Shown here piece by piece: positions 25,581-31,604 of a stretch of 45,037 nt of DNA. The stretch covers positions 1-45,037 of the forward strand of contig JAQVFO010000009.1 in assembly GCA_028697205.1 (NCBI GenBank), in the 5' to 3' direction. The notes under the pieces were generated by a model. It was not told the origin of the DNA. It saw only the letters and a program-made list of their open reading frames with translations, and ran no database searches. Position 1 is the stretch's first letter; each line of letters starts with the position of its first letter. The DNA is from Candidatus Altimarinota bacterium. GTDB lineage: Bacteria > Patescibacteriota > Gracilibacteria > BD1-5 > UBA6164. The position numbers and the translations under genes are program-made.

Positions 25581-26189
25581 TTAAATTTCTTTTCTTTCTT
25601 TTATTGCATTAAGAATTGTTATGTTGTCAGCATACTCTATATAACCAGAACTTAATCATCTACTTAGTCTTGTCATATTTACTTTATATTTAAGTCAAAG
25701 TCTTTCGATTTCTTCTTTTATATACATAGTTGTAGCTTCTCATTCTATATTTGGGTTTGTCGCTATAATTAGTTCAACTCTTTTGTTACTTTCACTTATT
25801 CTTTCCCATAGTTTTTTGAAGTTTAGATCAGCAACAAAAACTCAATTAATAGGAGAAATAGCTCATCAAAGTACATGGTAAACTCATGAGTATCAACCAG
25901 TTTGTTCAATTGTAAGTAAATCTAAGTATTCTTCAATTATACATATAGTATTTTGTTCTCTATTTTTTGAGGAACATATTTTACATATATCATCTTCTAT
26001 ATCTGTTAGAGCTCAGCAAATAGAGCATTTTGATACCTTGTGTTTTAAATCATTTAAGTTTTTTTTAAATTCCTCAATATAGTTTAAATTAGTATTTAGT
26101 AAAAAAAAGGCAAGTTTAGTTGCTGATTTTTCTCAGATTCATGGAAGTAGGCTTATTGTATTTATTATTTTTTTTAGAGCTTCTGGCAT
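25581..26189 (-). CDS. recR: Recombination mediator protein RecR
   Basis: 202 residues, the usual size. RecR with RecO helps load RecA at gaps. Visible features: N-terminal helix-hairpin-helix (SLLPGIGEKSATKLAFFLL), a C4 zinc finger (CSICGALTDIEDDICKICS), then the Toprim domain with CIIEEYLDLL and a C-terminal Walker-like GLSSGYIEYAD segment. The usual DnaX-RecR gene pairing is absent. Upstream is a heptad-repeat leader and the terminator of the rsmH operon, so recR probably has its own promoter. Confidence 0.95.
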
Positions 26190-26196
26190 AAAGTAT

Positions 26197-26231
26197 TGAA
26201 TAGTGTATAGTTAATAGTGAATAGTATATGG
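26197..26231. repeat. Heptanucleotide tandem repeat upstream of recR
   Basis: Five units of a 7-base degenerate repeat (TGAATAG, TGTATAG, TTAATAG, TGAATAG, TATATGG) placed immediately 5' of the recR start on the minus strand. Confidence 0.7.
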
Positions 26232-26240
26232 AGAAAAAAT

Positions 26241-26276
26241 AAAAAATCAAAAAAAGCTTCGTTGGTACAAAGCCTT
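26241..26276 (-). terminator. Terminator after the rsmH-ftsL operon
   Basis: On the minus strand AAGGCTTTG pairs with CGAAGCTTT (two wobbles) around loop TACCAA and is followed by TTTTGATTTTTT. Confidence 0.7.
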
Positions 26277-26343
26277 AATTTAATAAAATAGAATTTTTTA
26301 GATATTCAAAGGTATATTTTATTGAAATCTAATGGATAAAATT

Positions 26344-26772
26344 CTAATTGTTATAAACATAATTAACTCCTTCTTTAATTACAAGGTAGTCAGGATTTTC
26401 TACCTTCTCCATATCTTGAGTATCTTCTTCTTTTATACTTCCTAGACTTTCTAGTTCAGCTATTTTTACATCAAGTTGCTCTTTTTCAATTAATAAATTT
26501 TTCTTTTCTATTTCAAGTTGTCTGATGCTAAATCATTTTGTAGCATTCACATTTATTATCCAGATATAGTAGATAAGTAAAAGGCAAATAAAACCAACCA
26601 TAATAATATATGTAGAATTTATATCAAATTTGATGTTTTGTTTTTCTTTCCATCTTTTTGACACAAACGGTGATTTATCTTCGCTTAATACTATCTTTGG
26701 ATACATCACGGGAAATAAATTATGGATTAAATATTTGTATTTATAGTTTTTCTGCACTTCTAGCTTTTGCAC
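26344..26772 (-). CDS. FtsL-like cell-division membrane protein
   Basis: 142 residues. A ~50-residue basic cytoplasmic tail is followed by one membrane helix ([20 protein letters not shown], about 54-73) and then a coiled coil ([20 protein letters not shown]) typical of FtsL/DivIC-type septal proteins. Identification rests on topology and on synteny: it overlaps the 3' end of rsmH by 32 bases, the classic mraW-ftsL order of the dcw cluster. Sequence similarity in this family is always weak. One Gly codon just after the helix is UGA, so a standard-code reading would truncate it there. No other dcw genes are adjacent. Confidence 0.75.
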
Positions 26773-27667
26773 TTCTAGATCTTGGATTTGTTTTTTCTTC
26801 TTCAGGGGTTGGAATAATTGGTTTTTTTGTTAGTATTTTTATTTGTTTTTTATGTTTACAAGTACAGATTAAATCTGTGCATATACAATCTCTACTTTCA
26901 TCTTTAAATATATTCTTTACAATTCTATCTTCCAAAGAGTGAAAACTTATTACAAATATTGTTCATCAAGGGCTTAGTAAGTTTATTGCATCTTTTAAAG
27001 ATTTTTCTAGTGTCTCCATTTCTTTATTGGTCTCAATCCTTAAGCTTTGGAATATACGATTTTTTGCTTTTGGAAATTTTATACATTCATCTATTAAGTT
27101 TGCTAATTCTTTTGTAGTTTTAAACTTAAATCAAGATTTTCTTTTTTCTATTATATTTTGAGCTATTTTTCTACTTGCTGGTTCTTCTCAATATTCTCTA
27201 AAAATTCTTATTAATTCATCTTCTTTGTAAGTATTTACTATATGTGATGCGGGGAATCAGATGCTAGTATCAAATCTCATATCTAAAGGTCAATCAAGTT
27301 TGAAACTAAATCATCTTTCAGCTTCATCTACATGTAAACTAGATATTCCTAAATCGTAATAGATTCAAGTAATATTTTTTATTCAAACTTTTTCAAGTTC
27401 ACTTTTTAAGTTTACAAAGTTGGAATTTATAAGAACAATTTTTATATCACTTCTAATATTTTCTAAAACTTTTTTTGCTAATTCCAAGTTCCTAATATCT
27501 GCATCAAATCATACAAATATGTCTCAAGGATTTAGTTTTTCTATTATCTTTTTAGCATGTCAAGCTAATCATAACGTACAATCAACTATTATATTTTGCT
27601 TGTTTTTCTCTATTTTAATGGAAGAAACAAGTTCTTCTAGAAGGACAGATATATGTAATCATTCCAT
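26741..27667 (-). CDS. rsmH: 16S rRNA (cytosine1402-N4)-methyltransferase
   Basis: 308 residues, family-typical length. It methylates C1402 in the ribosomal P site using S-adenosylmethionine. Start [14 protein letters not shown] (family: H-x-P/S-V-L). The SAM site is [20 protein letters not shown] with GFDAD, and hallmark motifs [30 protein letters not shown] and [14 protein letters not shown] are intact. An inserted Cys-rich bit ([11 protein letters not shown]) near the end is usual for the family and may bind a metal. It is first in an operon with the FtsL-like gene. Confidence 0.96.
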
Positions 27668-27843
27668 TTTTATAGACTTTTTGTTAAAAAGATGTTAATA
27701 AGTTATTTTTCTTCTCTCTAAATAACTACTTTTCTTATATATTTATATACTTTTTTAATTGTCTGTCAAAATAAAGTAAAAAAAAGACTAGACAAATTTA
27801 TAAAAATATACATTAGCTTTAAATTAACTTTAAAATTAAGTTT

Positions 27844-27858
27844 TTAACAATTTGTTAA
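27844..27858. promoter_or_regulatory. Inverted repeat 1 upstream of sufC
   Basis: TTAACAA-T-TTGTTAA, a 7-1-7 perfect palindrome; a candidate operator. Confidence 0.4.
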
Positions 27859-27899
27859 CTAAGAGAAATTTTACAAATAAATCTTGCTTTTTTTAAAAT

Positions 27900-27916
27900 A
27901 TTACTAAAATAGTAAT
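27900..27916. promoter_or_regulatory. Inverted repeat 2 upstream of sufC
   Basis: ATTACTA-AAA-TAGTAAT, a 7-3-7 perfect inverted repeat. Confidence 0.4.
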
Positions 27917-27922
27917 GATTAC

Positions 27923-27941
27923 GAAATTTTGAAAAAATTTC
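27923..27941. promoter_or_regulatory. Inverted repeat 3 upstream of sufC
   Basis: GAAATTTT-GAA-AAAATTTC, an 8-3-8 perfect inverted repeat 6 bases after repeat 2. It could be an operator or leader hairpin; no long T-run follows, so it is not an obvious terminator. Confidence 0.4.
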
Positions 27942-28036
27942 TAGCTAAAAACCTGAAGGAATATGAGAAAAAATTAAAATACTTTAAAAAAGTCTCTATA
28001 CTTTCTATTCTTAGCTTTATTCTTTAATGATAATTT

Positions 28037-28771
28037 ATGATAAAAATAAAAGATTTAAAAGTTAAAATCCAAGATAAAGAAATTCTTTCTTGAGTAAATT
28101 TAGATTTTGAAATCGGAAAAAATTATTGTTTACTTGGAAAAAATTGAAGTGGTAAATCAACCTTATCATCAGTTTTAGCTTGATCTCCAAAATATGAAGT
28201 TGTTGGTTGAAGTATAGAAATAAACTGAAAAAATTTATTTTTATTATCTCCTGAAGAGAGAAGTTGAGAATGAATATTTTTGTCTTTTCAAAATGTTCCT
28301 GAGATTCATGGTATAAGATTAAGTGAATATTTAAGAACAATTTACAATATACATATAAAAAATATTAATTTAGATGTTAAACCATTGAGCCCATTTTTAT
28401 TTAAAAGATTTGTAAAAAAATATTTAGATGAATTGTGAATTAAAGAAGAGTTTTTAGATAGAGACTTAAATGTATGATTTAGTTGATGAGAGAAAAGAAA
28501 GATAGAAATTCTACAAATGAAGCTTATTAATCCTAAATATATTATTTTAGATGAAATAGATAGTTGACTTGATTTAGATGCGTTTAAGACTGTTGCAAGT
28601 TTGTTAAAATCTTTAAATAGTAAGGATAATTGTATAATTATTATTACACATTATTTTAAGATTTTAGATTATATAGATGTTGATAAGGTTTATGTTATGA
28701 AAGATTGAATAGTTGAGAGGGAGTGATGAAATGATTTAGTTAAGGAAGTTATGGAAAAAGGGTTTGAATAA
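28037..28771 (+). CDS. sufC: Fe-S cluster assembly ATPase SufC
   Basis: 244 residues, normal length. ABC-type ATPase of the SufBCD scaffold; ATP hydrolysis drives cluster assembly on SufB/SufD. Walker A is GKNGSGKST, followed by LLSPEERSGEGIFLSFQNVPEI (the SufC Q-loop region), signature FSGGEKRK and Walker B YIILDEIDSGLD, then ITHYF (H-loop). The ATG at 28037 is chosen because the ABC fold begins at once (MIKIKDLKV); an ATG at 28027 is out of frame. First gene of the suf locus, but separated from sufB by an oppositely oriented insert, so sufB may need its own promoter. Confidence 0.96.
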
Positions 28772-28795
28772 AAATAACCGGGCCTTAGCCCGGTT
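28770..28795 (-). terminator. GC-rich terminator of the small reverse gene
   Basis: Perfect 8-bp stem AACCGGGC/GCCCGGTT. On the minus strand it is followed by ATTTTTATT, so it terminates the reverse gene; on the plus strand there is no T-run. It is unusually GC-rich for this genome. Confidence 0.75.
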
Positions 28796-28994
28796 AAGTA
28801 TCGCAACTTCATGATTTATTTTTTTCTTTCTTTCTTCTTTCCCATATATAGTACAGCATCATTGAATCTCCTACGAGTAGTCCGGACAATAAAGGAACTA
28901 CTACCCATGATATAGGAGAATTCATATTGTTACTTATGTATATATATAGGAGGGTGGCAGATGTTAATAAGATTTTAATGATAGAATAAACCAT
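28794..28994 (-). CDS. Small two-helix membrane protein of atypical composition
   Basis: 66 residues reading UGA as Gly, or 61 if the UGA at 28809-28811 is a true stop. Two hydrophobic segments (about 4-21 and 30-49) are followed by a strongly basic tail (WERRKKEKNK). No family recognised. It sits between sufC and sufB in reverse orientation, with its own Shine-Dalgarno site and a GC-rich terminator. Its codons are unlike its neighbours: ATC, GCC, ACC, CTC, TCC and CTG occur, and both internal glycines are GGA rather than UGA. These features suggest recent acquisition, perhaps from a phage or a standard-code donor (inference). Confidence 0.65.
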
Positions 28995-29000
28995 GATTTT

Positions 29001-29006
29001 CTCCTA
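29001..29006 (-). promoter_or_regulatory. Shine-Dalgarno site of the small membrane gene
   Basis: AGGAG on the minus strand, 6 bases before the ATG at 28994. Notable because the other genes in the window generally lack such a motif. Confidence 0.65.
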
Positions 29007-29117
29007 CTTTCACAGCGGTTAGCCATATGCTTTTGTGTTTTAGAATACCTAAAACAACTAATCGGGAAAGTTTAAGTAAAATTATAATAATTAGTATAAT
29101 AATAATGTCAAGAAAAT

Positions 29118-30515
29118 ATGAAAAATACAATTACAACATCATGAACTTGGGATTATTCAGATGAGATAAGTTATAAACATGAACTTGTTTCATGAATTAA
29201 TGAACAAGTAGTTAGACAAATTTCAGAATCAAACAAAGAGCCAGAATGGATGCTTGAACTTAGACTTAAGGCATTAAATATTTATAACTCTAAGTCTTTA
29301 CCTTCTTGGTGACCTGATTTATCTAAACTTGATTTAGATAGTATTTATTATTTTGCTAAACCTGTTTGAGCTTGAGATAATAAAACTTGGGATGATGTTC
29401 CAGAAAATATTAAAAAAACTTTTGATAAATTAGGAATTCCTGAAGCAGAAAAGAAAGTACTTGCTTGAGTTTGAGCACAGTATGATAGTGAAGTTGTTTA
29501 TCATAATTTAAAAGATGAATTAAAAGATATGTGAGTTATATTTGATGATATGACAAATGCTTTACAAAATCCAAAATATGAAGAAATTATTAAAAAATAT
29601 TTTGCAAAATCTATTCCATTATCTGATCATAAATTTGCAAGTTTACATTATGCTGTTTGGAGTTGAGGGACCTTTTTATATATTCCTTCTTGAGTAAAAG
29701 TAAAAGAACCATTACAGTCATATTTTCGTATGAATGTAAAAAGTTGATGACAATTTGAACATACTATGATTATTTTAGAAGATGATAGTGAAGCACATTA
29801 TATAGAAGGGTGTTCTGCTCCAAAGTATGATAAGAACTCACTTCATGCTGGATGAGTTGAAATATTTGTCTGAAAGAATTCCCATATGAGATATAGTTCA
29901 GTAGAAAATTGGAGTTTAGATACTTTTAATTTAAATACTAAAAGAGCTATTGTTGATACTAATTGATTTATGGAATGGGTTTGATGAAATATGTGAAGTA
30001 ACACTACTATGCTTTATCCTTGCAGTATTTTAAAATGAGATAATTCTCGTGCAGATCATTTATGAATTGCATTAGCAGGTACTTGACAAAATCAAGATAC
30101 TTGAGCGAAAGTTATACATATAGGGAAAAATACAACAAGTAATATAATAACAAAATCTATTTCAAAATGAGGATGAATTAATACTTATAGATGATTAGTT
30201 GATATAAAAAAAACTGCGACTTGAAGTGTATCAAAGATTGATTGTGATGCTTTATTGATTGATGCTGATTCAAAATCTTATACTATTCCAGTAATAAAAA
30301 CAGATAATTCAGATTCAACTGTTGCTCACGAAGCAAGTGCTGGGAGAATAAATCCTGAGTATTTATTTTATTTACAGTCTAGGGGGATTTCTGAGGATGA
30401 AGCAAAAGTTATGATAGTAAATGGTTTTATAAGTCCAGTAGTTAAAGAATTACCTCTTGAATATGCAAGTGAAATGAATGTGCTTATAGGGATGGAAATG
30501 GAAGGAGGATTTTAA
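29118..30515 (+). CDS. sufB: Fe-S cluster assembly scaffold SufB
   Basis: 465 residues, family-typical. With SufC and SufD it builds Fe-S clusters. The whole length follows Suf[23 protein letters not shown], then [87 protein letters not shown] and the C-terminal [20 protein letters not shown] and [15 protein letters not shown]. The Cys in EGCSAP and the conserved C-terminal Glu are present. The upstream ATG at 29105 is out of frame. It starts a tight plus-strand run of six genes to 33703. Gly is mostly UGA. Confidence 0.97.
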
Positions 30516-30532
30516 TAATAATGTAATAATAT

Positions 30533-30913
30533 ATGTTAAAATTAAGTAAAAATATAATAGAAGATTTAAAATCAAGATGAGTTCAAAAAGTGAAATTGTA
30601 CTTTTATAATTCTTGATGTAGTGGTACAAAATTAGATATACATGAAGATGATTTTGAAACTTTTTGATTGATTCAAGTAGATTTAAAATTAGACTTTAAA
30701 GTTTTTATTGAAGAAAAAGATGAAGATAAATTTAAAAATGCTATTATAACAAAAGTTGAAGTAGCAGACCATACTTGAAATAAAAAAACAAGATATCTTT
30801 ATAATTCTGAAGTGGTTAAGGATAGGTGTGGTTGTGGATCAAGTTTTTCTTTTGAGAAAAAAACTCCAAAGTTAAATCTTGAAAAACTAAAATGATTAAA
30901 AAATAACTTTTAA
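30533..30913 (+). CDS. A-type Fe-S carrier protein (IscA/SufA-like)
   Basis: 126 residues, usual size ~110-125. It probably receives clusters from SufBCD and delivers them to apo-proteins. The three conserved cysteines are Cys29 (SGCSGTKL) and the C-terminal Cys99-Gly-Cys101 (DRCGCGSSFSF), spaced nearly as in E. coli IscA (35, 99, 101). The overall sequence is divergent and the usual GGCSGFxY segment is altered, but pattern and position in the suf operon support the call. It lies 17 bases after sufB and 19 before sufD. Confidence 0.8.
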
Positions 30914-30932
30914 ACATTATAATTATTTACAT

Positions 30933-31604
30933 ATGTACATTATAAAAAATGGATTTTATAAAAATATTGAATCTGATGAAATAGTTATCTGAGATAATTT
31001 AATTGTGGCTATTTTTGGTAATAATAATATTTTGAGAAATGTAATTATTTGAAAAAACTCAAAACTTGAGTATTTCTGATTCTATACTGATGAAGGGGAT
31101 TATGATAAAACTTTTACTTTGAATTGAGAAAAATCAGAATGTACAGTAAATTCTTTAATATATTCAAAGAATAATAAATTAAATGTAAGAATTTTATGAG
31201 AATCTAACTCAAATAATACAAAAATAAAAGTTCATATTTTATCTTTTGTATGAGAACAATGAGATATAAAAGTAGATTGAAATATAAAGATTAGTTCTTG
31301 ATTATCAAAAGTAATATGAACCTTGAAAGAAGAAAATATATATTTATGAAATACTTGAAAAATTGCTTGAATACCTACGCTTTTGATTGAGTCTAATGAT
31401 GTTGAAGCAAGTCATTCATGTAATATTGAAAGAATAAGTGATGAAAAATTATTTTATTTAAGGAGTAGATGAATTTGAAAAGAAAATGCTTTAAGAATGA
31501 TAATAGAAGCTAAAATAAAAGATTTATATAGATGTATTTTTGCTTATGATAATAAATTTGAAAAAGAAATGCTTGAAAATATAATTGATATGATTGGTGA
31601 ATAA
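30933..31604 (+). CDS. sufD: SufD-like scaffold subunit, short
   Basis: 223 residues, much shorter than the typical SufD (~400). It is mostly the parallel beta-helix core of the SufB/SufD family, rich in short Gly-turn strands. The diagnostic part is the C-terminal EASHSCNIERISDEKLFYLRSRGIGKENALRMIIEA, corresponding to the SufD VKCSHGATVGQLDxxxLFYLRSRGI region. The N-terminal helical domain of longer SufDs is missing. It would pair with SufB and SufC; position in the operon supports this. Alternatively a second, degenerate SufB-like subunit. Confidence 0.85.

Follow-up and report, generated by a model that had tools for sequence, protein, structure and literature searches.

The window analyzed here, a stretch of DNA of 45,037 nucleotides, belongs to a genome of the Gracilibacteria type in which TGA is read as glycine (code 25); this genome, designated G000, comprises 1.27 Mb in 19 contigs. 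Two genes of the suf operon, sufC and sufB, lie on the plus strand of the window, and a compact minus-strand unit spanning 28775-29111 is placed between them (Table 1). As proposed in an initial annotation made from the sequence, this is a reverse-oriented unit containing a small ORF with its own Shine-Dalgarno (SD) sequence and its own G+C-rich terminator.

Table 1. Features of the sufC-sufB region, with positions in the window.
Feature	Position	Strand	Basis
sufC, 244 aa, code 25	28037-28771	+	synteny and ABC_tran Pfam match
G+C-rich intrinsic terminator	28775-28796	-	terminator scan
Code 25 frame end: G-S-C-D-T (G = TGA at 28811-28809), then TAA	28794-28808	-	code 25 ORF
61-aa ORF, ATG start, TGA stop, two predicted membrane helices, basic tail	28809-28994	-	
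Predicted transcript leader	28995-29075	-	sequence between promoter-like element and ORF; start site by prediction
Shine-Dalgarno AGGAG	29001-29005	-	sequence
Promoter-like element: TTGACA 29111-29106 with TATTAT (spacer 16) or TATAAT (spacer 19)	29081-29111	-	consensus scan, 11/12
sufB, 465 aa, 26 in-frame TGA	29118-30515	+	SUFBD_core E 5e-78

The AGGAG sequence is separated from the ATG of the 61-aa ORF by six bases. When code 25 is applied, this ORF is lengthened by five codons and the TAA that then ends it touches the terminator stem. The stem is formed by nine pairs, six of them G-C, and is followed by TTTTTATT. Two terminators were observed in the scanned 5 kb, where 0.8 were expected, and strict G+C-rich terminators were found at only seven distinct sites (eight output lines) in the whole G000 genome, all of them adjoining such units or RNA genes as judged from their contexts. 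The promoter-like boxes fall outside the interval 28772-29060 to which the unit had originally been assigned; the TTGACA/TATTAT pair (29111-29084) is a close match to the consensus, in a region where promoter matches are as frequent as expected by chance (33 vs. 34.4). Its -35 box sits 7-12 bases ahead of the sufB start in G000, and in several relatives it overlaps the ATG-TCA of sufB.

All of the code 25 features tested were present in G000. TGA accounted for 19,696 of its 23,941 glycine codons (82%), a tRNA-Gly(UCA) gene (anticodon tca) was located on contig C6, and RF1 was detected above its cut-off while no RF2 exceeded its own; TGA should therefore not terminate proteins in this genome. 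A strong SD (AGGAG or GGAGG in place) was found in just 2 of 868 long ORFs, and any of three four-base SD cores in 14 of the 868 long native ORFs. A scarcity of SD sequences is reported for Absconditabacteria in PMC10783764. The 3′ end of the 16S rRNA of G000 retains CUCCUU, which pairs with AAGGAG, and hence SD-led starts are still possible.

The higher G+C content attributed to the unit held for the interval 28772-29060 taken as a whole, with 33.9% vs. 23.9% genome-wide, a value reached by 433 of 25,432 sliding genome windows, rRNA and tRNA windows included. It did not single out the 61-aa ORF, the base composition of which (30.6% G+C, equalled by 21 of 870 native long ORFs) is only mildly odd on its own. 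The bias towards C-ending codons was confirmed, as 10 of the 60 codons end in C, around four times the native rate of 4.3% (binomial 2e-4), and a share as high was reached by one of 870 native genes. The reported use of GGA glycines was correct in that neither is TGA, in a sample of just two codons. The start signal was a stronger sign of foreignness than the base composition. The unit and the host genome are written in different “dialects”, because of the use of TGA for glycine, the rarity of strong SD sequences and the presence of RF1 without RF2 in the latter.

The 61-aa ORF is an orphan, present in one genome. The two helices and basic tail initially predicted were recovered by hydropathy (segments 2-20 and 28-46, pI 9.6) and by AlphaFold2 on the single sequence, which gave helices at 2-22 and 27-60 (mean pLDDT 83.7, pTM 0.37). 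These predictions point to a two-helix micro-protein that may reside in the membrane. The result that would have spoken against the initial annotation, the presence of the gene at this position throughout the phylum with host-like codon bias, was not obtained: no convincing homolog of the protein appeared in the 60 relatives searched, the best match having an E value of 0.004 and three internal stops. The search of phage and plasmid collections suggested in the initial annotation gave no convincing homolog either, and neither did the viral and genome contigs searched, so that no donor of the 61-aa protein was identified in these sets. With regard to the holin-like or toxin-like roles initially suggested, PADLOC gave no match, and those in PHROGs were weak and to families of unknown function (best E 0.17). 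Thus, the assignment to a known phage or defence family was discarded, since nothing convincing came from any of these searches. Membership of DUF6404 (PF19942) was also ruled out, since residues 12-56 match it weakly, with 17.3 bits (E 0.006) vs. a gathering cut-off of 27.6 bits.

The suf locus of the relatives was then retrieved using sufB as the query, and 41 of the 48 family genomes were usable (G003, G019, G031, G034, G061, and G068 had no sufB match, and G062 had a partial one). The claim that the gene breaks the suf operon was borne out by this comparison, as sufC and sufB were contiguous or nearly so (less than 100 bp apart) in 15 of the 41 genomes. The gap measured at least 100 bp in another 24, and sufC was not adjacent to sufB in the remaining two. 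When a unit was defined by an SD five-mer or close variant leading a standard-code ORF of at least 20 aa, such an ORF was present on the minus strand in 15 of the 24 wide gaps and on the plus strand in three, and nine had none by this rule. Four different states were found at the four readable sites within the genus of G000: the 61-aa gene in G000 itself, an A+T-rich ORF without SD in G001, a gap of 18 bp in G002, and a different gene, of 79 aa, in G004. The contiguous arrangement to be looked for in close relatives was therefore present even within the genus. Among the 59 unit proteins compared, including the suf ones added by hand, only the pair from G026 and G033 matched each other, and paralogy among the units was otherwise rejected.

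The 11 suf-site units ending in TAA or TAG contained 34 GGN glycine codons and no TGA, whereas the sufB genes of the 15 unit-bearing genomes contained 319 TGA and 259 GGN glycines. The suf-site protein of G006 belongs to DUF7352/phrog_3848 (E 2e-26 and 1e-21), with matches in 52 phage records, all below 60% identity. The richest relative has 28 units in 800 kb, about one every 29 kb; if units were evenly spread at such a density, a single gap would be occupied far less often than the 15 times observed among the 39 genomes in which sufC and sufB are adjacent, this being a rough comparison between different genomes. Hence, the sufC-sufB gap is a recurrent insertion site, and relatives bear different genes there that are built alike, which suggests that foreign genes are captured at this position.

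Some gaps had other contents. Other inserts, with G+C-rich repeats (CCCCTCCTTAGTAAGGAGGGG), occupied those of G020, G011, G035, and G015; the G011 and G015 gaps also contained ORFs on the plus strand (121 and 126 aa) that look DUF559-like by eye. The gap of G027 contained a minus-strand frame that, by eye, apparently uses TGA codons.

The matching pair of proteins comes from genus g5, where both G033 and G026 carry two tandem units in the suf gap; a peptide like the second one is also found in G008. The 63-aa proteins of G033 and G026 are 62% identical, with a dN/dS of 0.13 at saturated dS, and in both genomes the ORF is TGA-free and preceded by an SD core. In sufB, which is 93% identical between these genomes, TGA is used in one or both at 30 of the 36 shared glycine columns; the 63-aa unit has just two shared glycine columns, neither of them with TGA. 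This is suggestive, although not proof, that the g5 units have been kept in the standard code. Both G033 units end in TGA, whereas the stop at that position is TAA in the counterparts from G026 or G008. If the change went from TGA to TAA, it would fit a slow adaptation to the carrier; the reverse direction would fit reading in a standard-code cell. Together with the lack of an RF2 above cut-off in G000, these swaps between homologous units lend support to the earlier suggestion that the TGA of the 61-aa ORF may be a real stop from a standard-code donor. In addition, the two genes of a unit in another relative, G021, overlap by ATGA, and TGA is therefore the natural stop of that unit.

Units of this kind were also searched for outside the suf locus, in the whole of G000, 800 kb of the single 1,343,103-base contig of G021 and 400 kb of G004. 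The final detector, requiring an SD-led standard-code ORF plus a terminator in non-native DNA and controlled with reversed sequence, gave 10, 28, and 1 units, respectively, vs. 0, 2, and 0 in the controls. The detector had been changed twice, and the counts of the other versions were less favourable: 4, 1, and 1 vs. 0, 0, and 0 with a strict version (G000 and 400 kb each of G021 and G004), and 12, 11, and 0 vs. 5, 6, and 1 when no terminator was required. One of the G000 matches (C4:28927-28989, plus strand) is antisense within the focal unit and another (C3:90739) was assigned a terminator that falls in the next gene, so that eight is a fairer count than ten; several short G021 matches also look doubtful, and G004 had almost no units in its 400 kb. 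The ORFs were cut at the first TGA, so that the absence of TGA from the units is in part a matter of definition; a fairer figure comes from the 22 of the 28 G021 units that end in TAA or TAG, which have 68 GGN glycines and no TGA by hand count (native TGA 58%). Their arginine codons were CGN in 42% of cases, vs. 13% in native genes.

The link between absence of TGA and presence of SD was tested separately with ORFs defined by code 25. An SD was present in 18 of 57 TGA-free ORFs vs. 9 of 649 others in G021 (p 4e-15), in 1 of 25 vs. 4 of 1,092 in G000 (p 0.11, not significant), and in 0 of 5 vs. 1 of 333 in G004. The TGA-free genes of G021 include purB, purC-purE, purM-like, purL, and dapD-like genes. 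Gene acquisition from standard-code donors is likely in this genome, and it is the simplest reading there because the set includes ordinary enzymes. The search of viral contigs for donors of five other unit proteins gave no match.

Several particular regions emerged from these scans. The TGA-free enzyme genes of G021 lie on C1 at 115833, 255263, 307107, 312059, and 532039, and several lipoprotein-like TGA-free ORFs were also seen in this genome. Three consecutive SD-led small ORFs (23, 29, and 73 aa) are found in G000 at C6:3902-4496, two of them with the same terminator stem (GCCGCA/TGCGGC). Contig C2 of G000 (12,365 bases) may be a misbinned contig or a recent mobile element: its checked long ORFs are TGA-free, with 22-28% G+C, and a DNA methylase and an IS transposase were recognized by eye. 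The leader words GTGAAAG and GGCTAAC were rejected as a feature common to the units, their short forms being frequent in the genome and the long form single.

The initial annotation is thus supported as regards a foreign, standard-code-type gene interrupting the suf operon; the larger result, which goes beyond it, is the existence of a recurrent docking site and of a genome-wide class of genes in a foreign dialect. Phage “moron” genes, for instance in lambdoid phages, are single small genes of different composition, with their own promoter and terminator, inserted between the genes of an operon. The suf unit resembles them in being a single small gene of different composition, inserted in an operon with its own terminator, absent from the junction in close relatives and replaced by other content at the same site; its promoter-like boxes match the consensus closely, in a region where such matches are at chance level. 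Unlike morons, it sits in a bacterial suf operon, and its genetic code and start signal, not its composition alone, set it apart from the neighbouring DNA. Since it is flanked by sufC and sufB and not located in a prophage, it can be said to work like a moron, not to be one. Integron cassettes likewise bring single genes, often orphans, to one capture site; however, the suf units bear promoter-like boxes and a terminator of their own, and no integrase gene lies beside suf. No attC-like fold was apparent in the single 60-nt leader stretch folded, on the 5′ side (z -0.8). The integron integrase model TIGR02249 was over its cut-off in none of 47 genomes when TGA was not read as glycine; in code 25, a recombinase on C13 of G000, a contig other than that of suf, scored 208.9 vs. 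265, and 220.1 vs. 220 for the XerA/integron integrase NF040815.

The region around this recombinase (C13:21041-25015) is possibly integron-like. It contains a TGA-free ORF of 118 aa bordered by a folded element (z -7.3) and by a second one rich in G+C; next come a PtuA-like ATPase with one TGA and then the tyrosine recombinase.

Our favoured reading, held with moderate confidence, is that a complete foreign-type unit originated in a standard-code bacterium or phage, from which it was captured, and lies backwards at a recurrent insertion site upstream of sufB, as a member of a scattered class comparable to morons. Transcription would start near 29075, from the TTGACA box beside the sufB start, run against sufC and stop at the terminator beside the sufC end. 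A ribosome with the retained CUCCUU tail would initiate at AGGAG, and UGA would be read as glycine, adding a harmless tail of five residues to the 61-aa protein, which could insert in the membrane as a helical hairpin. The micro-protein is probably made in the recoded bacterium itself, and our guess is that it could act there as a membrane micro-protein of the phage type, in exclusion or like a toxin. The code-11-compatible phages of Gracilibacteria described by Liu et al. (2023; PMC10746230) are a plausible donor pool. As in those phages, standard-code genes without in-frame TGA are here tied to bacteria with TGA as glycine; the difference is that the present ones are single units in a bacterial chromosome and that TGA is the stop in some. 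No paper on standard-code gene units in these chromosomes was found among the titles and abstract openings of the open-licence literature. Gene finders that apply code 25 and expect no SD may fail to call such genes or call them wrongly, and a layer of these genomes has perhaps been overlooked. Moreover, the dialect makes foreign genes countable, and gene flow into host-dependent bacteria measurable.

A rather unlikely alternative is that the units are passengers, i.e., functionless prey or phage DNA inserted by chance where it is harmless. The orphan proteins and the gap content that differs from genome to genome agree with this, as does the A+T drift of some gaps, such as those of G001 and G070 (16-20% G+C, no SD-led ORF). 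What argues against mere passengers is the recurrence of an intact promoter-SD-ORF-terminator layout, the purifying selection in the g5 pair, and the strong strand bias (15 minus vs. 3 plus).

It is improbable, although of wider consequence, that the units are genes for a partner cell, whose standard code, SD and terminator are kept so that they can be expressed by the prey or host once DNA or RNA has passed into it, the recoded bacterium being the carrier only. The T-DNA of Agrobacterium, for example, bears plant-type signals. The persistence of two tandem units in G033 and G026, the 63-aa one TGA-free and SD-led in both, next to a sufB that uses TGA at most shared glycine columns, would be in agreement with this, and so would the TGA ends of the G033 units, the ATGA overlap of G021, and an RNA in which the anti-SD GUCUCCUCC is unpaired, found in G000, a genome whose genes lack SD. 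Nevertheless, large metabolic genes of G021 (purL and others) show the same dialect, which fits plain acquisition, and the 16S tail still pairs with AAGGAG, so that SD can function at home; besides, the g5 glycine sample is tiny and RF02278, the family that this RNA resembles, also weakly matches 4 of 14 control genomes. Activity of the units in a partner cell, if proven, would add a novel means by which one bacterium acts on another. Cultivated Absconditabacteria kill and consume their hosts, according to the summary in PMC11452946. A doubtful and more far-reaching version is that recoded Gracilibacteria keep rotating small genes, and perhaps anti-SD RNAs, in standard-code language so as to have them expressed by the cell on which they live, with the loss of SD and the reading of UGA as glycine shielding the carrier from its own weapons and the sufC-sufB gap as one docking site.

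A native, fast-evolving gene of the lineage, with an SD and few glycines by chance, is very unlikely: the same place and strand in many genomes and the several small membrane proteins would suit it, but the unit proteins are unrelated to each other and, at the suf site, spell glycine without the TGA so common in sufB. Finally, a regulatory RNA with an incidental 61-aa ORF is hardly credible and the non-coding reading was rejected. Although folding of the predicted transcript is better than that of shuffled sequences (z -3.3), no Rfam match up to E 1 was obtained in 26000-31000, and the SD, the start and the codon bias are in keeping with a coding gene.

Additionally, two RNA elements were noticed on contig C3 of G000. 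The first one (C3:96863-96973) is an RNA unit with a promoter, the unpaired GUCUCCUCC and a strong terminator, with a fold z of -3.9; it is a candidate anti-SD RNA, even though SD sequences are nearly absent from this genome. It resembles RF02278 (37.5 bits, below the gathering value of 50), and a similar RNA of G001 (31.5 bits) looks homologous in sequence by eye. The second (C3:97028-97320) has tRNA-like ends (GGGAATA...TATTCCCACCA), its anticodon loop is interrupted by a long insert, and CCUCC hairpins lie downstream; no tRNA or tmRNA was called there by ARAGORN, and the matching place in G001 holds a tRNA with a GGC-looking anticodon.
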